Shown here piece by piece: positions 5,605 to 55,277 of a stretch of DNA of 64,000 bases; position 1 is the first letter of the stretch, and every line of letters begins with the position of its first letter. Source of the stretch: Nakazawaea peltata (lineage: Eukaryota; Ascomycota; Pichiomycetes; Alaninales; Pachysolenaceae); contig BCGQ01000008.1 in the NCBI GenBank assembly GCA_001599355.1, forward strand, positions 310,001-374,000, in the 5' to 3' direction. The position numbers were made by a program, and so were the translations under genes. The notes under the pieces were generated by a model, which had not been told where the DNA came from, searched no databases, and was given only the letters and a program-made list of their open reading frames with translations.

Positions 5605-6309
5605 ATGGACAGTCATCAACTGAACGAACAGCTAGCTCTGATGCAAGCTCAAATGGACCAAATGCAAGCTCAAGCCGACGCTTTAAGACTGCAACATGAA
5701 CAGTCTCAAATCTCCAATAATCTGACCGAAGGCGATGTCGTGCCGCCCCAACAACAAACCGAGGCTCCAGCTCCTCAAACCCAGCAGCCTCAACTGGAGT
5801 CGACTCAAATCGATGAAATGGAAGATGATTCACTGCCACAAGGACAAAGTCAATCACTGTCGCAACAACTGCTGGCTCTGCTGCTGCTGGCTCTGCTGCT
5901 GCTGGACGTCGATGCCCGCTCAGTCTACGTAGGTTCAGTCGACTACGGTTCGACTCCTGAAGAATTACAGAAACATTTCGAGCACTGTGGCTCCATCAAC
6001 AGAGTCACCATCTTGATGGACAAGTACACTGGACATCCAAAAGGGTTTGCTTACGTAGAATTTGCCGAGAAAGAATCGGTCACTGAACTGCTCCAATTGA
6101 ATGACTCGGTCTTCAGAGGACGTAACTTGAAGGTCACTCACAAGAGGCATAACGTGCCTGGAATGAGCTTCAGAGGTGGTCGTGGTGGTGCTATGAGAGG
6201 TAGAGGTGGTATGGGTTTCCGTGGAGGTTTCCGCGGAGCCCCAAGAGGTAGAGGAGGTTTTGGTGCTAGAGGATCTTTCAGAGGAAGAGGACGTTTCGTC
6301 CCTTACTAA
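5605..6309 (+). CDS. SGN1: RRM poly(A)-binding protein of PABPN1/Pab2/Sgn1 type
   Basis: 234 residues. The order is a Gln/Met-rich N-terminal coiled coil (about 5-40), an acidic linker, an alanine tract, one RRM (about 106-180; RNP2 VYVGSV, RNP1 KGFAYVEF) and an Arg-Gly-rich tail ending GRFVPY. The segment [14 protein letters not shown] and the RRM resemble human PABPN1 and fission-yeast Pab2; the budding-yeast relative is Sgn1. These bind poly(A) in mRNA or nuclear RNA maturation. Residues 89-100 (5869-5904) are ten CTG and two GCT codons: with CTG read as Ala this is a pure 12-Ala tract, while the standard code would give a spurious membrane-like Leu/Ala stretch. Confidence 0.87.
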
Positions 6310-17452: not shown

Positions 17453-17484
17453 ATGGTTGCTCCTCACGGTGGTGTTTTAACTGA
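17410..17484 (+). other. Short upstream ORF overlapping the MET3 start
   Basis: An ATG at 17410 (context ACAATGA, with A at -3) opens a 24-codon frame that ends with TGA at 17482-17484, overlapping the MET3 ATG in another frame. It lies 32 bases after the TATA box, so whether it is in the mRNA depends on the transcription start. Confidence 0.4.
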
Positions 17485-19105
17485 TTTGATCCAAAGAGAT
17501 GGGTCCATCAAAGCCGAGCTTTTGAAAGAAGCTGCCGGTTTGAAGAGTTTGGTCTTGACTGCTCGTCAATTGTGTGACTTGGAATGTATCTTGAACGGTA
17601 GTTTCAGTCCTTTGACCTCTTTCATGTCCCAAGCCGATTACGACTCTGTCGTTGAGAATATGCGTTTGCTGAACGGTTTGGTATGGACCATTCCAATCAC
17701 TTTGGATGTCTCTGAACTGGAGCTGGCCCGTTTCGACGTTGGTGAGCGTGTTGTCTTGCGTGATTTGCGTGACGACAAGCCTTTGCTGATCATCACCATC
17801 GGAGATTTGTACACCCCAGACAAACAACGTGAAGCCGACTTGTGTTTCCGTGGAGTCGCCGATCACCCAGCTATCAAATATTTGAACGAGATTGCCGGTT
17901 CCGTTTACATTGGAGGTGAGATCCAACTGATCCAACTGCCAACCCACTACGATTACACTGCCCTTAGAAAGACTCCTCTGCAATTAAGAGCCGAGTTCCA
18001 ACAAAGAAACTGGACTCGTGTCGTTGCTTTCCAAACCAGAAACCCAATGCACAGAGCTCATCGTGAATTGACCGTCAGAGCTGCTCGTGACCAATTGCTG
18101 AACGTTTTGATCCACCCAGTCGTTGGTTTGACCAAGCCAGGAGATATCGACCACCACACCAGAGTCCGTGTCTACCAAGAGATCATCAAGAAATACCCTA
18201 ACGGTATGCTGCAATTGTCTCTTTTACCATTGGCCATGAGAATGGCTGGTGACAGAGAAGCCGTCTGGCATCTGATCATCCGTAAGAACCACGGATGTTC
18301 CCACTTCATCGTCGGTAGAGACCATGCCGGTCCAGGTAAGTCTGCTATCACCGGCAAGGACTTCTATGGTCCATACGATCTGCAAGAATTAGTCGAGAAA
18401 TTCAAGCTGGAATTGGAAATCGAAGTTGTCCCATTCCGTATGGTCACCTACTTGCCAGATGAGCAACGTTATGCTCCAATTGATGAGATCGAAGAAGGTA
18501 CCAAGACTCTGAACATCTCCGGTACTCAATTGAGACAAAAATTGAAGGACGGTTCCGACATTCCTCTGTGGTTCTCCTACCCAGAGGTTGTCAAGGTCTT
18601 GAGAGAGTCTCACCCAGCCAGACCACTGCAAGGTTTCACTTTATACTTGACTGGTTTGCCAAACTCTGGTGTAGATGCTTTACTGAACGCTTTACAACTG
18701 ACTTTCAACCAATTTGGTGGTCACAGACATATCACTTTATTAAACTCTACTGCCAGTGGTATCAGTAAGGAATCTTTGCCATTCTTCACTGGAGAATTAG
18801 TCCGTTCTGGTGCTGGTGTCATCGTTGCCGACGAGTCCCATGCTCCTTCCTCTTCTGATATTCTGCATGTCAAACTGGAGGCTTCCAAGGCCGGTTCTTT
18901 CATCGTTATCAGCTTGACCAGTGACATCCACCAATGCTCTGCTGACGACAGAAAGGGCTACTACCAAACTGACCGTGCTGATATCAAGGAATACGTTGCT
19001 CCTCTGGATGCCGATATCAAGGTTGACTTATTGAAGGACGGTACTTTAGTTGCTGTTCAAAAGGTTGTACTCTACTTGGAGGAGCAAGGTTTCTTCCAAT
19101 TCTGA
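17453..19105 (+). CDS. MET3: ATP sulfurylase Met3
   Basis: 550 residues. Makes adenosine 5'-phosphosulfate from ATP and sulfate, the first step of cytosolic sulfate assimilation. The catalytic domain has the signatures [13 protein letters not shown] (about 196-208), [18 protein letters not shown] and VGRDHAGPG. The C-terminal third is an APS-kinase-like domain (GLPNSGVDA near residue 402) without a working Walker A Lys. It is longer than in S. cerevisiae (511 aa) and nearer to the allosteric domain of filamentous fungi. Most CTG codons here sit at positions that are Ala in relatives (17669, 18272, 18380), which reveals the altered code. Confidence 0.95.
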
Positions 19106-19178: not shown

Positions 19179-20561
19179 TTAAATCACCAACCATACTCCC
19201 ATTCCGATTATAGACAGTCCTATCACCACTGTTAAGATGGCGGCACCCAGTTTATCACCCAGAGACAAACTTAAAGGTGAGTCAAGGGTATCGGAAGATT
19301 CGGTTCCGGCAGCTCCGTCACCATATGACGACCCTCCAGTCTCTTGAGTGTATGGCAGTGGTCTATCTGGGAATCTAAGACTCTGGATCACTTCTAACAG
19401 CAGCATTTGTTCTCCTAATCCGTAGTATCCGTCCCATCCGTCGTACCACCAAACCATACCACAAGTCACTCCATCGGTACCACCTGAACACGATTGCAGC
19501 AGTCCTTTCAGTGACAGTTGAAGTAATGGCATGATATCGTCATATGTGGAAGGCACTAACTTGGCTGTCAACAGCATCGATCTGGCTAAGAACAGACGGA
19601 AACTCCTCTGGTCATTATTACATGACCCAGACTTTTGACACAGCAGTTCATACATGATCGAATTGTTGAAGAACACCTTAGTTCCATAAAGGAATTTCTC
19701 TGTACGTTCTAACCATGCCTCATCCTCGGTGTAATTGTATAAGTAAGCACATCCTCCTAAAACTAATCCAGCATTATAAGTCCATTGCAACTTCTCGATA
19801 TCAGTACAGTTACCGTCAATAGAAGCACCATCATAAACGAACCACCAAGTATCTCCCTCAGAAATGAACTGAACACCAACTAACCAATCATAAACCTTCT
19901 CAGCCCAATCAACATACGAATCATTCGAAGTGTATCTGGCAAGTCTAGCACCAATATGGAACAACCCAGCATTGGAGACACTGTTCTTATAGTCATAACC
20001 AGAGTTCCATTGGAAAATCTGCCAACGAAGACCTCCATTACAATGTTCATTATCCCAACGAGAAGACATAGTATTGAACACCAGCTGCAGCAAATAAAGC
20101 CATTGTGGTTCATCACTAGATGGGTTAGAAAAGTTCCTCTCCAGCAGCAGCATCAGAGCAATCCCCCAAAACACTTGATCATCATTACCTTCGGTAGTAC
20201 TTTGGTTAAGAGGGATATAATCGTCATTCTCACCTACCTGATACAATAAACATTCCTTGACCAAGTCCAGGTAAGTGTCATTCTCCATATACCACCAAAA
20301 GTCGAGCATGGACCCCCACAGAAGCCCAGCTTCCCACCAATAATATGGAGAAGTGAACTCACCGATGGTTCCTCCGTATTTCCAGCCGTCGTAATAGTTG
20401 AGTAACCCGTCTGCGATCACCGAGGTGGCATATTGCATACTTTCCAAGTCATCAATATCAAGCTCAACGGCGCTTACGGGAGCAGAAAGCGATGCCATCA
20501 ACGCGATAGGTGTTACCAGGAGCGCCAGGCCCAGCCATTTTTTTATTGATTCGATTCTCAT
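19179..20561 (-). CDS. DFG5: GPI-anchored GH76 cell-wall protein, Dfg5/Dcw1 family
   Basis: 460 residues from the ATG at 20561 (further in-frame codons upstream lack ATG). A signal peptide (about 5-30), a glycoside hydrolase 76 domain with the acidic pair in EGNDDQVFWG, many N-glycosylation sites, a Ser/Gly-rich linker and a C-terminal hydrophobic tail (AAILTVVIGLSIIGMGVWLV) typical of GPI attachment are visible. Dfg5 and Dcw1 (458 and 449 aa) are a redundant essential pair thought to link GPI mannoproteins to the wall glucan. I cannot tell which of the two this is. It ends 74 bp from the MET3 stop, convergently. Confidence 0.9.
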   Translation of the reverse strand: MRIESIKKWLGLALLVTPIALMASLSAPVSAVELDIDDLESMQYATSVIADGLLNYYDGWKYGGTIGEFTSPYYWWEAGLLWGSMLDFWWYMENDTYLDLVKECLLYQVGENDDYIPLNQSTTEGNDDQVFWGIALMLLLERNFSNPSSDEPQWLYLLQLVFNTMSSRWDNEHCNGGLRWQIFQWNSGYDYKNSVSNAGLFHIGARLARYTSNDSYVDWAEKVYDWLVGVQFISEGDTWWFVYDGASIDGNCTDIEKLQWTYNAGLVLGGCAYLYNYTEDEAWLERTEKFLYGTKVFFNNSIMYELLCQKSGSCNNDQRSFRLFLARSMLLTAKLVPSTYDDIMPLLQLSLKGLLQSCSGGTDGVTCGMVWWYDGWDGYYGLGEQMLLLEVIQSLRFPDRPLPYTQETGGSSYGDGAAGTESSDTLDSPLSLSLGDKLGAAILTVVIGLSIIGMGVWLVI

Positions 20562-23634: not shown

Positions 23635-25023
23635 TTATATGTCGATCAACTTGTTATCAGGGTCACCATTGGATTGCTGCAGCGGCAGGTTACCAAATCC
23701 ATACCCAGTGTGAGCTGGAACCACAGCAGTGGCTGGCACTCCTGTGTACTGGCTTGTGATGAAGGGGTTGGCCTTGCTGCCGGAGTAACCGGTCTTGAAA
23801 CCAGTACCGGATGAGTTAATGAAGTTCTGAGTCTTGGTATGTTGCAGAGGGATTCTTTGGGATCCAGTATTACCAAAGGTATCGATACCGGTTCCGGTAG
23901 CTAAAAGCAGGTTAAGTTCTGAGAATTTCTCATTCTTCAGCAGCAGGGCAGAGTTCTGAGCAGGAGCCTGTGGAGCTTGGACTTGAGTTTGAGCTTCAGA
24001 AGAAGATTCAGGTTCTTCATTGTCAGCACTAAGAGCAAATGGATTATTAGCTCCTGTTTGCATCAGCTGCTGTTGTTGCTGCCACAAATACTGTTGTTGC
24101 AGTTGCTGTTGTTGTTGTTGCAATAGCAATTGCTGTTGATACAGCAGCTGTTGTTGCTGAAGTAAGTAAGCCTGCTGCAGTTCATATTGCAGTTGCAGTT
24201 GTTGTTGCAGTAATAACAGCTGCTGTTGCTGTTGCTGTTGCAAATAAGCATTTTGCAAGTATCCTGTATCCATTTGGCTCTGATAGACAGGTTGACCATA
24301 CATATCATACCCAATTAAGACACCATTTGCAGCAGCAGAACTATCAAGATCCAAAAGATTAGGTTGTTGCAGCATCTCACGTTGCTTACGCATTTCTTCC
24401 TCCTCTCTACTTAATTGAAGCAGTCTTTGAAGAGATTCAGAAGAACCAGAACCTTGAAGACGTCTAGCACGTTCTTCTTCCAGAGTCAAACGACTCAGCT
24501 CTAACAGTTTCTGTAAATCTTCATCATATTCATTGTCTTCACGGTCATCACGACGACGACCATGACGATTTCTACGGCCTTCAGCTGCCAGCAGACGCTC
24601 GGCCCGCAACCTCTCATCATCCATCAAAAGAGAAGTCAATTCTTTCAGCTTCACTCTGATAATAGCACCATGGTCTTGTCCTCCATCGTCGGTATATTGG
24701 AACTCACGTAATGTCTTGATGATGTACAAGTTATCTTTGGACCACAAAACAACGTTGGAAGCTCCGTACCGTACTAAGAAATCTAATAAAGTCAACAGCT
24801 TCAGGACATGGCGCCAATTCTTACCTTTATCATTCAATCTCTTGTCAATCATATCCATGACCTCGAGGAATTCCGAGTTCTCATAAGTGTGATTGGCAAC
24901 ATCTCTCATCTCCAGAGTGCTCGGTCCATAAGGTTCGTTAGAGGTAGCATTACGTACCATAACTTGGGCGGTTGAGTACCCATTGGCGATGTTTTTTACC
25001 TGTCTTAAAAGTGATTTCGACAT
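23635..25023 (-). CDS. ENT2: Epsin, clathrin adaptor (Ent1/Ent2)
   Basis: 462 residues. An ENTH domain (about 5-140; VKNIANGYSTAQVMVRNATS, WRHVLKLLTLLDFLVRYG) binds PI(4,5)P2. Two ubiquitin-interacting motifs follow (DEDLQKLLELSRLTLEEE and SESLQRLLQLSREEEE), then a long Gln-rich tract (about 250-330), two NPF motifs (NNPFALS, ANPFITS) that bind EH-domain proteins such as Ede1 and Pan1, and a C-terminal clathrin-box-like LIDI. This is the full domain order of yeast endocytic Ent1/Ent2. The poly-Gln tract is a CAG/CAA microsatellite at about 24060-24250 and likely length-variable. Confidence 0.93.
   Translation of the reverse strand: MSKSLLRQVKNIANGYSTAQVMVRNATSNEPYGPSTLEMRDVANHTYENSEFLEVMDMIDKRLNDKGKNWRHVLKLLTLLDFLVRYGASNVVLWSKDNLYIIKTLREFQYTDDGGQDHGAIIRVKLKELTSLLMDDERLRAERLLAAEGRRNRHGRRRDDREDNEYDEDLQKLLELSRLTLEEERARRLQGSGSSESLQRLLQLSREEEEMRKQREMLQQPNLLDLDSSAAANGVLIGYDMYGQPVYQSQMDTGYLQNAYLQQQQQQQLLLLQQQLQLQYELQQAYLLQQQQLLYQQQLLLQQQQQQLQQQYLWQQQQQLMQTGANNPFALSADNEEPESSSEAQTQVQAPQAPAQNSALLLKNEKFSELNLLLATGTGIDTFGNTGSQRIPLQHTKTQNFINSSGTGFKTGYSGSKANPFITSQYTGVPATAVVPAHTGYGFGNLPLQQSNGDPDNKLIDI
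24060..24245. repeat. CAG/CAA trinucleotide-rich tract coding poly-Gln in the epsin
   Basis: Interrupted CAG/CAA repeats on the minus strand, broken by Leu and Tyr codons, encode the Gln-rich region of the epsin gene. Within the coding frame throughout. Confidence 0.8.
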
Positions 25024-25567: not shown

Positions 25568-26305
25568 TCACCATGGAATCTCAGTACCATCGTTGTTAAG
25601 GAACTTTGAAGCCTCATTGAGCTCATCGACAACCTTTAATTGTCTCTTTGCACCTTCCTCAACAGAGAGAATCTCTATTGGGAATTGCTCAACAGTTATC
25701 TTTAAACCATCCAAAAAGTTGCTAAACATATCAGTATTAACAACGCCAGGATTGTAAGCAGCAACAATAGTATCAGGTTCTTCTGAGGCAATCAATTTGA
25801 TAATGTAATTCAAATACAGTTTGGATGCTCCGTACAGATTAGTGGTGAAACCAATTTTTTCAACCAATTGAAGCGAACCAACCAGGGAAGAAGTGAAGAT
25901 CAATTTCTTGACACCTTTCCATAACAGTTCATGTTTCTTCAATTCTTGGTACAAGATGATTGCACCCAAACCATTGACAGTGAAGTGTTCCATGAAAGAG
26001 TCAGGGGAAACGTCTACCACTGGTTGATTGGTGATAGTATTAGAAATACCCGCATTGGCAAGGATAACGTCAACCTTCAGACCTGAAGCGGCAACCTTAG
26101 CAACAAAATCCTTAGTACTTTCGGCGCTTGAAGCATCATACTTGTAAACGGTAACCTTTCCAGTCTTCAGCAACTCATTCAACTCCTCAGAATCAGATCT
26201 GGAAGTAGCAATAACCAAAGTGTCTTGTTTCTTGACAAGTTCTTTAACAAGACCGAGGCCAAGACCTCTGTTGGCACCAGTGACTAAATAGGTAGTGGAA
26301 CTCAT
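25568..26305 (-). CDS. Short-chain dehydrogenase/reductase, tandem copy 1
   Basis: 245 residues from the ATG at 26305. An earlier in-frame start is possible, but this ATG aligns exactly with the starts of the two sister copies. The Rossmann motif TGANRGLG (about 9-16), NAG, the catalytic Ser (TSSLVGS) and YGASK (Tyr/Lys) are all present, so it should be an active NAD(P)H-dependent oxidoreductase; TSR after the second strand suggests NADPH. The family is close to YIR035C/Irc24-like and carbonyl-reductase-type SDRs. Substrate unknown. First of three head-to-tail copies, all on the minus strand. Confidence 0.88.
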   Translation of the reverse strand: MSSTTYLVTGANRGLGLGLVKELVKKQDTLVIATSRSDSEELNELLKTGKVTVYKYDASSAESTKDFVAKVAASGLKVDVILANAGISNTITNQPVVDVSPDSFMEHFTVNGLGAIILYQELKKHELLWKGVKKLIFTSSLVGSLQLVEKIGFTTNLYGASKLYLNYIIKLIASEEPDTIVAAYNPGVVNTDMFSNFLDGLKITVEQFPIEILSVEEGAKRQLKVVDELNEASKFLNNDGTEIPW

Positions 26306-26381
26306 ATTGAAAGTGGTGTTTTTTGTGTGTGGAGCGTAAGGCGCTAGCAAATTTCTGTAAAGAATGGAACTTTATTTGAAC

Positions 26382-26619
26382 CTGACACAAAGTAAAAGGT
26401 GCCCAAAATCTCGATTCATAGCTCCTTTTATATGGGAATCATAGCCAAGTCACTTGGCACTTCCATCTGAACGTGAAATATCGTTCTCGCGAGACTCGCT
26501 TAATCTCACAGTACCCCACTGTAAATTTCGTTTAGTCCTCGGAAATCAAAAATGGACCCCTTTTTTAATTCTTGCGCATCTTTTCAGTCAGCCCTGCAGC
26601 TTCATATACTTTGTGTCAG
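26382..26619. repeat. 238-bp segment bounded by 13-bp perfect inverted repeats
   Basis: CTGACACAAAGTA at 26382-26394 and its exact reverse complement TACTTTGTGTCAG at 26607-26619 bracket most of the copy-1 promoter. I see no clear target-site duplication. The segment also contains the promoter element shared by all three SDR copies, which argues against a recent insertion. Confidence 0.5.
26536..26580 (-). promoter_or_regulatory. Conserved SDR promoter element, copy 1
   Basis: Reads (plus strand) CCTCGGAAATC, then ACCCCTTTTTT, then TTGCGCATC, about 230-275 bp upstream of the copy-1 ATG. The same three words in the same order lie upstream of copies 2 and 3. It contains a CCCCT stress-response-like core. 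Confidence 0.6.
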
Positions 26620-26941
26620 ACCTAAGGAATTTTTTCGGAGTTTATTAGGTAGAAAAAATATCCGAACGGCTTATCCGAGGTTCAGCCGCATCTACAGCAA
26701 AACTTAGTAGGGAATCAGTGGAGTAGTGGGAGGTTAGACTTACGAGGTGGGGGATCCAGGATTGGGATAATTGAGGTCGTATTCGGATAAATATTGTGTT
26801 TCTGATAGCTTCTATGTAATCAGCTCTCTGTGAATTTGCTCTTTTAATTAGTAACAGCTGGAATAAAACATCTCTATCATTGTCTACTATATACAATTTG
26901 ATATCACATTGATTAATTTAGTTCCTATATGTATAAATATC

Positions 26942-27679
26942 TTACCATGGAATTTCAGTACCATCATTGTTAAGGAACTTGGACGTTTCATTGAGCTCAT
27001 CAATAACCTTCAATTCCCTCTTTGCTGCTTCTTCAGTGGTGAGAACTTCCATAGGGAACTCCTCTGCCTTGATTTTCAAATTATTCAATAAATTAGTGAA
27101 CATATCAGTGTCAACAACACCAGGACTATAGGCCGCAATGATGGTGTCAGACTCTTCAGAAGCAATTAATTTTACACTGTAATTCAAATACAGCTTTGAA
27201 ACACCGTACAGTGAGGTTGAAAAACCGATTTTGTCCACCAACTCGAGTGAGCCCACCAGCGAAGAAGTGAACAACAATTTCTTGACACCCTTCCATAACA
27301 GCTCATGTTTCTTAAATTCTTGGTACAAGAGAATTGGTCCCAAACCATTGACGGTGAAGTGTTCAACAAATGAATCAGGCTCAGCTTCTGCCATAGGCTG
27401 ATTTGTAGGTGCGTTTGCGATTCCGGCATTGGCGAGGATAATATCAACCTTCAGACCAGAAGCGGCAACCTTAGCGACAAAGTCTTTAGTGCTTTGTCTA
27501 CTTGAGGCATCATACTTGTAAACGGTGACCTTTCCGGTCTTCAGCAACTCATTCAACTCCTCAGAATCAGATCTGGAAGTAGCAATAACCAAAGTGTCTT
27601 GTCTCTTGACAAGTTCTTTAACAAGACCGAGACCAAGACCTCTATTGGCGCCGGTAACTAAGTAGGTAGTGGAAGTCAT
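26942..27679 (-). CDS. Short-chain dehydrogenase/reductase, tandem copy 2
   Basis: 245 residues, the same length as its sisters. TGANRGLG, NAG, TSSLVGS and YGVSK preserve the cofactor loop and Ser-Tyr-Lys catalytic set. The 5' end is almost identical in DNA to copy 1 (66 bp with no mismatch at 27537-27602 versus 26163-26228), while the middle differs in amino acids (APTNQPMAEAEPDS against TITNQPVVDVSPDS). In the SSRQSTKDF segment it matches copy 3 instead. This mosaic suggests local gene conversion. Substrate unknown. Confidence 0.88.
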   Translation of the reverse strand: MTSTTYLVTGANRGLGLGLVKELVKRQDTLVIATSRSDSEELNELLKTGKVTVYKYDASSRQSTKDFVAKVAASGLKVDIILANAGIANAPTNQPMAEAEPDSFVEHFTVNGLGPILLYQEFKKHELLWKGVKKLLFTSSLVGSLELVDKIGFSTSLYGVSKLYLNYSVKLIASEESDTIIAAYSPGVVDTDMFTNLLNNLKIKAEEFPMEVLTTEEAAKRELKVIDELNETSKFLNNDGTEIPW

Positions 27680-28422
27680 ATTAATAGTAAATTCTTGAGT
27701 ATAATGTTAGACGCTAGCTAAGTCTTAATGGAACTAAGTTTGAGTCTGGCTGTCTAAGTTCATTTTAGAGCTGATCCCCCCTGTATTTATATTAATCTAT
27801 TTCCGTTAACCCCCCCCTCGCGCCCCCCCAATTGACAATACCTCGTTTAAAAAAAAATCACCTACACACATTTTACTAAAGCACTGTAACCTCTCGCTAG
27901 TTCTCGGGTATTGAGATTACCCCTAATTTTTTGCGCATCTGTTTGGCTAGTCAATAAGTGAAGAGGCTTTGATGGTTTGGGGGTAAGGGAGGAGAAGGGA
28001 CTCTGATGAGGAAGCAATTGGATTATACAGTTGGATTTTTCGTTGGATTGAGTTGTTTAACGGAGTCAATCGGTTTCCGAACCTGAGAAACTGACTAACT
28101 AATTAAATTCACTAAAACCCCCCCACACTATCAAATCCTTAGCCGCACAAACTGCTAGCGCTTAATGCTCAACTAGCCATTAGTAATAAGATCTGGAAGA
28201 AAAAAGAAACAAAAAATCTCTTTTAGTACGAATTTGCACCACAGAGATTAATTATGGGGGATTTGAGAAACAGGATTGGGGGTTCATAATAATTTGGAAA
28301 TGAGGATAATTAGAAGGATTTGTTAGTCTGAGTAGAACATCGCAGAAAACAACAAACCATGTCAGTACAGTTTTTACATTAATCGAAATTGCTTCTTCTA
28401 ATTATACTTCTATTTAAATTTA
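27680..28422. other. Intergenic region between SDR copies 2 and 3
   Basis: 743 bases. The copy-2 promoter holds the conserved element and a TTACTAA (Yap1-type) site at 27873-27879. C-rich runs (27809-27830, 28117-28127) are present. No further gene or SDR remnant recognised. Confidence 0.5.
27901..27939 (-). promoter_or_regulatory. Conserved SDR promoter element, copy 2
   Basis: TTCTCGGGTATTGAG, ACCCCTAATTTT and TTGCGCATC in that order (plus strand), about 220-260 bp upstream of the copy-2 ATG; the weakest of the three matches but with the same layout and distance. Confidence 0.55.
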
Positions 28423-29160
28423 TTACCATGGAATCTCTGTACCGTTATTATGAACGAACTTAGCTGTCTCATTAAGCTCATCAATGACCTTCAATTCACG
28501 TTTAGCAGCTTCTTCTGGAGTAAGAACTTCTCTTGGGAATTTCTCGGCACTGAGTTTCAATCCACTCAACAAGTTAGTGAACATATCAGTGTCGACGACA
28601 CCTGGACTGTAAACGGCGATGATAGTATTTGGTTCTTCTGAAGCAATTAATTTGATAATATAATTCAAATACAGCTTGGATGCTCCATACAGAGAAGTAC
28701 TGAAACCAGACTTACCAACTAATTCAAGGGATCCACTCAGAGATGATGTGAACAACAATTTCTTTACGCCCTTCCATAACAGTTCATGTTTCTTCAACTC
28801 TTGGTAGAAAAGAATTGGACCCAAACCATTGACGTCGAAATGCTCAACAAATGAATCTGGATCGACATCCAGCATTGGTTGGTTAGCGATCATTTTAGAA
28901 ATACCGGCATTGGCAAGGATAATGTCAACTTTCAGACCAGAAGCGGCAACTGCAGAGATAAAATCTTTGGTGCTTTGTCTACTTGAGGCATCATACTTGT
29001 AGACAGTAACTTTTCCAGTTTTCACTAATTCATTCAATTCCTCAGATTCAGATCTGGAAGTAGCAATGACCGAGGTGTCTGGTCTCTTAACAAGCTCCTT
29101 AACAAGAGCAAGACCAATACCTCTGTTGGCACCGGTAACTAAATAGGTAGTGGAAGTCAT
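28423..29160 (-). CDS. Short-chain dehydrogenase/reductase, tandem copy 3
   Basis: 245 residues. It carries TGANRGIG, NAG, TSSLSGS and YGASK, so catalytic residues are intact. It is the most diverged of the three (GIGLALVKELVKRPDTSVIATSRSESEEL; C-terminus FVHNNGTEIPW) yet still plainly a duplicate. Its promoter has the shared element plus several TTACTAA sites, so expression under oxidative or chemical stress through a Yap1-like factor is plausible but inferred. Confidence 0.88.
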   Translation of the reverse strand: MTSTTYLVTGANRGIGLALVKELVKRPDTSVIATSRSESEELNELVKTGKVTVYKYDASSRQSTKDFISAVAASGLKVDIILANAGISKMIANQPMLDVDPDSFVEHFDVNGLGPILFYQELKKHELLWKGVKKLLFTSSLSGSLELVGKSGFSTSLYGASKLYLNYIIKLIASEEPNTIIAVYSPGVVDTDMFTNLLSGLKLSAEKFPREVLTPEEAAKRELKVIDELNETAKFVHNNGTEIPW

Positions 29161-30194: not shown

Positions 30195-31709
30195 TCAAGT
30201 GAAATGTTCACATCCTGGACAATTATGAAGAACCTCATGGATGAACACATCACAATCGATGCAGAAATTGTTATTACATTCCGGACATCTGTAACGAGAT
30301 TGTACAGATACAGGCTTGTTTGTAGGTGGTGAGACTTCTCTGGATGAAGAAGAAGAAGATATATGAGATGCAGATGAAGGTTTGAAGGGAGTCTGACAAG
30401 AGAAGCACAGCAGTTGATCGTTATTATCGATATCCATTTGATCCAGATCCAGATCCAGACCAGTCCCATTCTCTTCTACTGCATTAAATAACTTTAATGG
30501 GAATAAATGATGATACGATCTAGCTAAATGTGTAGACAAAATCAACATCAAGTCACAACATGGACAAAGTGTTGGTAAAGAACATACTTTAGACCGACAT
30601 TGAGGACAAACATAGCCCCCATAGATCAATTTTGAGTGACATGAACAAAATGTAGGAGTATCTTCAGATATTCTTGAAGGGAAACCCATCTTAACTAAAG
30701 TGAATCCGGATTTCGTAGAGTCAGAATTAGTAGCAGAAGCAGCTAACAGCAGTTTTTGTTGTTGCAGCAGCTTCAGAACCAGCAAAGGAGTCACCAGTTC
30801 CATGAAAAGTTCCTTGAAATGCAGCTCATTCAATACAACTCCATAACTCTCGGTGTCCCCATAGTTAGTACGTTGCACAATCTCTTTACAAATCAGAACT
30901 TGCAGTGTAAGACCGATAATCCGGCACCGAATATGATCTCTGACCAAAGATTTTACAGTCATATGAATATCTCCTGGGTCAGAAGTGAGAAGCAGACCGA
31001 AACAGATCAACACCTCTCTAGTCAGATGAGCAGGAACATGCAAAAGAAGCCCACGAGACATCTCAAGAGCATTCTGAAGCGTAGGATCTCCCTGAGGTTC
31101 GACCCTACGCAATTGTTTCAACAGTTCAATATGATCCAGAGGATTACCACTCACCTCACTGACCAACTGCAGGAACCCATTCCTCATAATGACCACTCCC
31201 AATTGAGAAATGGGATTCTGATCAAAATATTCAGTCACAAACTCAGACAGATACGTCAACATCAATTGCAGTCTGTTAGGTCTAAGATCTTTCTCGGTCA
31301 TCAGTACTGAAAGGTCCAAGACGAGGATTAAAGTCCTGATAATTCCACGTTGGAAGGGGGTGACATTCTTCAGAGACCTCAGTTTCTTCCTTTGCTCTAC
31401 AAGTCCACTAACAATGGTCTCAAGAGACCCCGCCTCATCCTCTTGGACTATATCCCATGATCTTTGATACTCATCTTCCCACAGATAGGCGGCACCGGAG
31501 GCCAGTTTACCGGCACTTCCATTTCCTGTTCCATTTGTTGCTCCATTTGTTCTATGTCTTGTTCTACGAGCGATTCCAGACCTCAGACCCTCACCATTTT
31601 CTTCTCCTTTGATTCCACTTCCCACATCGCCATCGTCGTAGTCGCTGTCGCCAGCTCCAATCAGTGGCGACGACACGGTGCCTACATATTCGTCATCTGA
31701 ATCGTCCAT
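30195..31709 (-). CDS. SSL1: TFIIH core subunit Ssl1 (p44)
   Basis: 504 residues (S. cerevisiae Ssl1: 461). Ssl1 is the p44 subunit that activates the Rad3/XPD helicase in transcription initiation and nucleotide excision repair. An acidic, Gly/Thr-rich N-terminus is followed by YLWEDEYQRSWDIVQEDEAGSL and a von Willebrand A-like fold (about 125-300; LILVLDLSVLM, GVVIMRNGFLQLVSEVSGNP). The C-terminus has a C4 zinc finger (CSCH..CPQC..CPCC) and a RING-like C4C4 domain (CFSCQ..CPECNNNFCIDCDVFIHEVLHNCPGC). In S. cerevisiae SSL1 is three genes from NOC3 on chromosome XII. Confidence 0.94.
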   Translation of the reverse strand: MDDSDDEYVGTVSSPLIGAGDSDYDDGDVGSGIKGEENGEGLRSGIARRTRHRTNGATNGTGNGSAGKLASGAAYLWEDEYQRSWDIVQEDEAGSLETIVSGLVEQRKKLRSLKNVTPFQRGIIRTLILVLDLSVLMTEKDLRPNRLQLMLTYLSEFVTEYFDQNPISQLGVVIMRNGFLQLVSEVSGNPLDHIELLKQLRRVEPQGDPTLQNALEMSRGLLLHVPAHLTREVLICFGLLLTSDPGDIHMTVKSLVRDHIRCRIIGLTLQVLICKEIVQRTNYGDTESYGVVLNELHFKELFMELVTPLLVLKLLQQQKLLLAASATNSDSTKSGFTLVKMGFPSRISEDTPTFCSCHSKLIYGGYVCPQCRSKVCSLPTLCPCCDLMLILSTHLARSYHHLFPLKLFNAVEENGTGLDLDLDQMDIDNNDQLLCFSCQTPFKPSSASHISSSSSSREVSPPTNKPVSVQSRYRCPECNNNFCIDCDVFIHEVLHNCPGCEHFT

Positions 31710-53975: not shown

Positions 53976-55277
53976 CTATATAGCGAGCTTCTGGACACTC
54001 AAGTCATCCTCCAAAGTCAAATGCAATGGGAACAGCAAGTTCTCACGATGGACAACGTATTCAGTATCGGCAGAACCTCCTAAAATATCGAAAATTTGGT
54101 CACTTTGCTTAGATTTGATCTTCTCAATCTCGATCGAAGTGTAGTTCGGACGAGCTTTTCCAACCTCGACAAGTGGTTTAGAAGTATCAATTTCTGTAGA
54201 GCCATCCAAACGAGATCCTACTTTCAAAGTGACACATTCCATTTCATGGAAAGAACCTTCAACAGCGATAATCCCCAGTGGTAAGAGACCAGCCTTGTTT
54301 TTCCTCGTCAATGCTCTGTAACATCCCATATCAATGACAATGGCACCAGAAGGTTTGAGTCCATGCAAAAGCCAGAATTCCTTCCTCTTGATCAGCACAT
54401 CATGTGACAGAAGGAATCTAGTGTGAAGTGGAACTCCACTGGAAATCATGCGGTTATACTCTTCCATATTTTGTTGGAGGAATTCTTGCTCCGATAAGTC
54501 TGGAGATGACTCAAGACTCTCCAAGTTATCATGCTTTTGGGAATACTCGATAATATCCAAGATACTTTGTGGGTTAGTTGATTTACAGATGACGGTGATC
54601 ACTCCAGCGCTGGTTCCCAAATCCAGGGCAATGATTTTTGTGGTCATTCCTCCAGTACCCACACTTGATCCAGTAGACTTTGTATTCACATTCAAGTTCT
54701 TCAAATTCCGCACTACTACCACTGGTTTCAGATCAGGATTCACACGTGGGTTATCAGTGTAAAGACAATCGACATCTGTCATCAAAAACAAGTAATCAGC
54801 ATTGCACATACCCGCCGTAATCGCACTTAATGTATCGTTATCACCGAATTTGATTTCTTGCACCGACAAGGTATCGTTTTCATTAACAATTGGGATAATA
54901 TCCATCTTAAGAAGCTCCTCAACAGTATTCTTGGCGTTCTGGAACTGCTTGTAGTCGTGAATGTCGTTTCTCGTGATCAAGATTTGCAGAATAGGTTGAT
55001 CCAACTGCTTGAACAACTCATCCCAAAGCAGGATCAACCTACCTTGCCCGATAGCAGCTAACAGTTGTGCTTTCAGTAATTGTTTTGGTTTCTGAGATAC
55101 TCCTACACGTTTCATTCCTACAGCCACCGCTCCTGACGACACAATAATGATCCGGTGCCCGCTTCTTCTTAACTTTACTATGGTCTCCACTATAAGTGAC
55201 ATATTAGCTATACGAGGTTCTCTGGTGACTTCATCGACAAGCGATGAAGATCCGAGCTTAATCACGATGGTGAACAT
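53976..55277 (-). CDS. PRO1: Glutamate 5-kinase Pro1
   Basis: 433 residues (S. cerevisiae Pro1: 428). Phosphorylates glutamate in the first step of proline synthesis in the cytosol. The amino acid kinase domain carries IVIKLGSSSLVDE, IIIVSSGAVAVGM, IPIVNENDTLSVQEIKFGDNDTLSA and TGGMTTKI. A C-terminal PUA domain (about 320-410; GAIVIDMGCYRALTRKNKAGLLPLGI) is present, as in other yeasts. In S. cerevisiae PRO1 is adjacent to BFR2 (YDR300C, YDR299W); here they are separated by APC11, LTV1 and PIH1. Confidence 0.95.
   Translation of the reverse strand: MFTIVIKLGSSSLVDEVTREPRIANMSLIVETIVKLRRSGHRIIIVSSGAVAVGMKRVGVSQKPKQLLKAQLLAAIGQGRLILLWDELFKQLDQPILQILITRNDIHDYKQFQNAKNTVEELLKMDIIPIVNENDTLSVQEIKFGDNDTLSAITAGMCNADYLFLMTDVDCLYTDNPRVNPDLKPVVVVRNLKNLNVNTKSTGSSVGTGGMTTKIIALDLGTSAGVITVICKSTNPQSILDIIEYSQKHDNLESLESSPDLSEQEFLQQNMEEYNRMISSGVPLHTRFLLSHDVLIKRKEFWLLHGLKPSGAIVIDMGCYRALTRKNKAGLLPLGIIAVEGSFHEMECVTLKVGSRLDGSTEIDTSKPLVEVGKARPNYTSIEIEKIKSKQSDQIFDILGGSADTEYVVHRENLLFPLHLTLEDDLSVQKLAI

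Follow-up and report, generated by a model that had tools for sequence, protein, structure and literature searches.

CUG is most likely read as alanine, and not as leucine, in a yeast related to Pachysolen

CUG is most likely read as alanine, and not as leucine, in the yeast studied here. The window is the whole stretch of DNA that was analysed, 64,000 nucleotides long (G000:C8:310001-374000), from an assembly of 11.63 Mb in 11 contigs. An earlier note on this DNA proposed that CTG stands for alanine, and the proposal is borne out: alanine occupies 29 of the 32 conserved protein columns that hold a CTG, it is the best of the 20 residues in a profile test, and the tRNA with anticodon CAG carries the acceptor pair G3:U70. 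We estimate a probability of about 0.97 that the window comes from the nuclear genome of a budding yeast of the CUG-Ala clade, in which a single-copy tRNA(CAG), charged by alanyl-tRNA synthetase (AlaRS) through G3:U70, puts alanine at CUG. The code itself is not new, having been described in a few yeasts (Pachysolen, Nakazawaea and Peterozyma). The nuclear code of Pachysolen is NCBI translation table 26.

CTG in conserved protein columns

The column comparison was made on three genes of the window:

17453..19105, plus strand: MET3 (ATP sulfurylase), an intact open reading frame with 20 CTG codons
21526..23277, plus strand: ILV1 (threonine dehydratase), open over its full length, with 15 CTG codons
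39156..45920, plus strand: ACC1 (acetyl-CoA carboxylase), open over its full length, with 42 CTG codons

The MET3 protein is predicted to contain ATP-sulfurylase and PUA_2 domains, with a weaker match to APS_kinase. Each gene was aligned with 120 listed homologues with its CTG codons masked as X, and columns were used only if at least 70% of the homologues had a letter there. This left 76 of the 77 CTG codons for scoring, one CTG of ILV1 being dropped because its column was poorly filled. The homologue sets retain the Pachysolen proteins and some from species named Candida and the like, in which CTG may itself have been mistranslated. The homologues were searched with the standard (leucine) translation, and thus any bias runs against the alanine reading.

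The tabulation of CTG columns against orthologues, which had been suggested as a check, gives mostly alanine rather than leucine or serine. The 32 columns that are at least 80% conserved and hold a CTG have alanine in 29, and leucine, serine and glutamine in one each. At a threshold of at least 50% there are 50 such columns, with alanine in 36, glutamate in four, serine in three, aspartate in two, and leucine, glutamine, arginine, lysine and valine in one each. Alanine makes up 145 of the 2010 conserved columns, so that chance is excluded as the source of the alanine matches (binomial p = 3e-30). The leucine codons of the same genes behave normally: at columns at least 80% conserved, leucine is returned by CTC in 14 of 15, CTT in 34 of 34, TTA in 35 of 36 and TTG in 118 of 120. 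Of the 1978 conserved codons other than CTG, 1877 match the standard code.

Individual sites in MET3 are as follows:

17669..17671, plus strand: CTG codon 73, alanine in 76 of 120 homologues
17936..17938, plus strand: CTG codon 162, a variable column (leucine 56, arginine 42) which leucine fits better
18209..18211, plus strand: CTG codon 253, alanine in 120 of 120 homologues
18272..18274, plus strand: CTG codon 274, alanine in 117 of 120 homologues
18380..18382, plus strand: CTG codon 310, alanine in 120 of 120 homologues
18509..18511, plus strand: CTG codon 353, a column with leucine 96, cysteine 18 and alanine 6

The earlier note had placed codons 73, 274 and 310 at alanine positions, correctly, and its two leucine-leaning sites in MET3 are real, these being codons 353 and 162. 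At codon 353 alanine is found in Pachysolen tannophilus and five other homologues, and therefore occurs elsewhere at that site. The CTG contexts that it cited as alanine in ILV1 and ACC1 also all agree, with alanine in 103 to 120 of 120 homologues: in ILV1, codons 136 (119), 147 (120) and 150 (106); and in ACC1, codons 261 (120), 287 (106), 356 (114), 1423 (103), 1737 (120), 1765 (115), 1780 (120), 1956 (120) and 2139 (106).

Scores of the alternative readings

For each homologue set we made a profile, against which the CTG codons of MET3, ILV1 and ACC1 were scored under all 20 possible residues, one residue at a time. Alanine scored best. Serine came second, 52 bits lower, and leucine was 150 bits lower, in 17th place of 20. 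As a control, all 11 of the other codons that occur in the three genes and were treated in this way returned their standard residue; CTA is absent from these genes.

Pfam domains were scored under tables 1 (CTG as leucine), 26 (alanine) and 12 (serine). For ten other proteins of the window, the top-domain scores sum to 1910.6 bits with leucine, 1986.4 with serine and 2050.6 with alanine, and alanine is best in all ten. They include:

53976..55277, minus strand: protein with amino acid kinase and PUA domains, AA_kinase scores 139.5 (leucine), 149.0 (alanine) and 141.8 bits (serine)
19179..20561, minus strand: glycosyl hydrolase 76 protein, 498.5, 529.2 and 509.8 bits in the same order
30195..31709, minus strand: Ssl1-like protein, 231.2, 254.4 and 247.4 bits
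35464..36606, plus strand: dihydrouridine synthase, 131.4, 149.3 and 137.6 bits
46224..47639, plus strand: subtilase, 124.9, 137.3 and 132.4 bits

In the subtilase, an Inhibitor_I9 domain is listed when CTG is read as alanine or serine and is absent with leucine. In the Ssl1-like protein, the secondary domain C1_4 scores 0.1 bit higher with serine than with alanine. One further reading frame changes its appearance under table 26, a mixed run of leucine and alanine becoming an unbroken alanine run:

5605..6309, plus strand: open reading frame, RNA-binding-like by eye

Ten reading frames outside the window were scored in the same way. Nine are the longest of the 94 listed (L087, which overlaps L086, was excluded) and the tenth, L014, was picked out of length order for its 27 CTG codons. 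The sums are 2772.7 bits for leucine, 2839.6 for serine and 2882.5 for alanine. Alanine scores above leucine in nine of the ten (in L069, leucine is 0.6 bits ahead) and above serine in eight (in L042 and L060, serine is ahead by 0.1 and 0.2 bits respectively). Some weaker secondary domains disfavour alanine, for example TMEM154 in L042. Without L014 the sums are 2412.1 for leucine, 2478.3 for alanine and 2455.3 for serine, with alanine above leucine in eight of nine and above serine in seven of nine.

The tRNA with anticodon CAG

An anticodon pattern for tRNAs with a short variable loop gave 35 matches in the genome, compared with 7 in a reversed control. ARAGORN, run over the loci of these 35 matches, identified one CAG tRNA; at the match inside the window it found no tRNA. 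A DNA search of the genome shows the gene to be single copy, and to lie outside the window:

G000:C4:81426-81498, plus strand: tRNA with anticodon CAG

The tRNA is of alanine type, with a short variable loop, G3:U70, A73 and G37. Its acceptor pairs are G1-C72, G2-C71, G3-U70, C4-G69, U5-A68, U6-U67 (a mismatch) and A7-U66. The Rfam alignment places its non-standard pairs at 6:67 and at one position in the D stem, with no others. The U6:U67 mismatch is common to the tRNA-Ala sequences, and is also seen in the tRNA-Leu(UAG) row. G3:U70 is the alanine determinant of tRNA. It was flagged in three of 43 ARAGORN sequences, some of which are one gene cut differently and which cover the isoacceptors in part: the CAG tRNA, tRNA-Ala(AGC) and tRNA-Ala(TGC). 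A further row for tRNA-Ala(TGC), one base out of register, was not flagged. The suggested tRNA check thus came out in favour of alanine, the sole CAG-anticodon tRNA found in the genome carrying G3:U70 and being of neither leucine nor serine type.

In a permissive scan with the Rfam tRNA model the gene reaches 50.9 bits. A default Rfam scan of the locus gave no match, and a search for tRNAs by Rfam family, in which 63 of 608 candidates were scored, did not have it among those listed. A T run lies 3' of the gene, and box A- and box B-like sequence can be made out by eye; the gene is presumably expressed. It probably descends from a tRNA-Ala. Whole-tRNA similarity does not discriminate between origins, the matches being 49 to tRNA-Ala(AGC), 48 over 83 bases to tRNA-Leu(AAG) and 46 to tRNA-Gln. 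The pattern search turned up six tRNA-Ala genes, which all lie on contig C9 (84160-298703); the CAG gene is on C4.

A tRNA-Leu(CAG) was sought among class II tRNAs, using an exact D-arm pattern that is independent of introns and that a divergent D arm would escape. It gave 16 genes, all of which could be typed: nine leucine (CAA five, one of them by eye; UAA two; AAG one; UAG one) and seven serine (AGA three, GCU two, UGA one, CGA one). No tRNA-Leu(CAG) was found among these 16. The tRNA-Leu(UAG) gene has a long intron. Two loci were reassigned: C6:401508 resembles a tRNA-Leu(CAG) and is a tRNA-Leu(AAG), its TCAG sitting in a stem; and at L117 the ARAGORN call of tRNA-Val(CAC) was rejected by eye and the gene counted as tRNA-Leu(CAA) with an intron. 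A pattern for long variable arms gave 119 matches, compared with 108 in its control, and none of the 32 of these that were run through ARAGORN is a CAG tRNA. With these counts, and with the matches listed in part, the case against a tRNA-Leu(CAG) depends on the D-arm pattern.

On the basis of these observations, we propose that AlaRS would recognise the alanine-type tRNA(CAG) by its G3:U70 acceptor pair, and that the charged tRNA would insert alanine at CUG. Leucine is written with TTG, TTA, CTT and CTC, CTA being nearly unused. AlaRS and seryl-tRNA synthetase are described as needing no particular anticodon bases (in the relevant part of PMC5951914).

It is worth considering whether CUG could be ambiguous, mostly alanine with appreciable leucine. 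Yeast leucyl-tRNA synthetase uses A35, G37 and A73, and the tRNA described here has the anticodon CAG, G37 and A73; in addition, the single tRNA-Leu(UAG) gene might read CUG by wobble. A passage in PMC5951914 attributes 3% leucylation of the Candida albicans tRNA-Ser(CAG) to its G37. Against this, leucine is badly tolerated at the CTG sites, as its 17th place in the profile test indicates, and in Pachysolen the product is given as more than 99% alanine, an earlier figure of 10% leucine being called mistaken (as stated in a section of PMC8645108). We consider appreciable ambiguity unlikely.

A serine reading, as in the Ser1 or Ser2 clades, is very improbable. Serine ranks second in the profile test, but it lies 52 bits below alanine and is found in one of the 32 conserved CTG columns. 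Moreover, the tRNA-Ser sequences of this genome have long variable arms, and G73 in four of five rows (the fifth being cut out of register), whereas in the CAG tRNA the variable loop is short and base 73 is A. The CTG columns and the tRNA class together refute it. The standard code, with the alanine matches as chance substitutions, is favoured by one conserved and one variable MET3 site and can be dismissed, being refuted by the CTG columns (alanine in 29 of 32), by the leucine that CTC, CTT, TTA and TTG return in MET3, ILV1 and ACC1, and by the alanine type of the sole CAG tRNA found.

Relatives and the use of CUG

Among the 360 listed homologues, the nearest that are named to species are from Pachysolen tannophilus, at 73% identity for MET3, 77% for ACC1 and 74% for ILV1. 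With this as the closest named relative, the yeast is probably a different species within the CUG-Ala clade already described. Two proteins rank above Pachysolen, one per search: P0001 for MET3 (81%) and P0241 for ILV1 (79%), which may come from a relative. As a probe for misread CTG in relatives, leucine was counted in their alanine columns, the counts of 1 of 19 for P0001 and 1 of 25 for P0241 being small. None of the 360 is named as from Nakazawaea or Peterozyma. The GC content is 40-45% along the window.

Pachysolen tannophilus is thus a separate species with proteins 73-77% identical, in which CTG is likewise alanine through a CAG-anticodon tRNA of alanine identity. For the Pachysolen clade this code is supported by BLAST and mass spectrometry, according to a passage of PMC5951914, and CUG-Ala with tRNA-Ala(CAG) is reported for Nakazawaea and Peterozyma in parts of PMC5951914 and PMC11415595. 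The genome studied here probably belongs with these genera. The CUG-Ser1 (Candida) and CUG-Ser2 (Ascoidea, Saccharomycopsis) systems are alike in that the synthetase of the capturing tRNA is independent of the anticodon, as set out in PMC5951914; they differ in that serine is inserted by a tRNA-Ser, whereas here the residue is most likely alanine. That paper also states that tRNA-Leu(CAG) is kept in four of five Ser2 species.

A 2014 paper states that no Pachysolen CUG is found at its most conserved leucine or serine positions, although its discussion mentions conserved serine positions (excerpts of PMC4986446). In contrast to this account, CTG is common here at conserved alanine positions: 29 of the 145 conserved alanine columns of MET3, ILV1 and ACC1 are written CTG.

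Codon usage in the window was counted in 28 of its 33 open reading frames (15,200 codons), four overlapping antisense frames and one open at the window start having been dropped. These contain 494 CTG, 487 GCT, 280 GCC, 124 GCA and 33 GCG, and CTG thus makes up 35% of the alanine codons. Elsewhere in the genome, 95 reading frames (46,881 codons) have CTG at 913 of 3164 alanine codons, or 29%; these frames, each 300 codons or longer, come from sampled loci and are not annotated genes, and L087 was left out of this count and of the correlation below, being kept in counts made on the list of 94. CTA is almost missing, with 18 of 15,200 codons in the window and 89 of 46,881 elsewhere. In the three genes, 32 of 77 CTG codons fall in columns at least 80% conserved, compared with 120 of 242 GCN codons (Fisher p = 0.24). 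Less expected than the code itself is therefore that CTG makes up some 30% of alanine codons and is about as likely as GCN to fall in a conserved column.

An EF-Tu-like reading frame (L120:1495 onward, contig C10) has extreme codon bias, with TTG 31 times and TTA once. It has no CTG among its 33 alanine codons, and is the only such frame of 116, a hint that genes with very high expression avoid CUG. Matches to enolase, GAPDH and a probable EF-1alpha gene lie at G000:C7:639609-640481, C4:845960-846433 and C1:1224828-1225151. Across 116 of 123 frames (seven with few leucine or alanine codons were left out) there is a weak negative trend of CTG share with codon bias (Spearman -0.19, p = 0.04). 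One CAG tRNA gene was found to serve CUG, compared with the six tRNA-Ala genes.

Two further features of the window may be noted. The protein encoded at 23635-25023 has a long glutamine-rich stretch with many CTG codons among the glutamines; CTG is one base from CAG, and repeats of this kind may therefore seed alanine into polyglutamine. On the minus strand, 25568-29160 holds three consecutive similar frames of 245 residues, which by eye look like short-chain dehydrogenases and form a local gene family.

A 2018 paper describes CUG, in the part concerned, as relatively rare and as avoiding conserved sites in clades with a changed code. This statement concerns clades, and so a single CTG-rich species need not contradict it. 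In titles and the opening lines of abstracts we found no description of CUG usage in this genome, which does not show that none exists. Tentatively, and with rather less than even confidence, we suggest that the captured CUG is now an ordinary alanine codon and CTA almost purged, so that this genome would exemplify a late stage of codon capture. Avoidance of CTA could limit a tRNA-Leu(UAG) that might otherwise misread CUG.

The standard code mistranslates about 20-33 codons in every thousand (913 of 46,881 and 494 of 15,200), and the proteins of this genome should therefore be translated with table 26. At conserved alanines CUG is used almost normally, in contrast to the published picture of clades with a changed code. 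The genome would allow one to test how use of a codon recovers after capture, and whether avoidance of CUA protects its new meaning.
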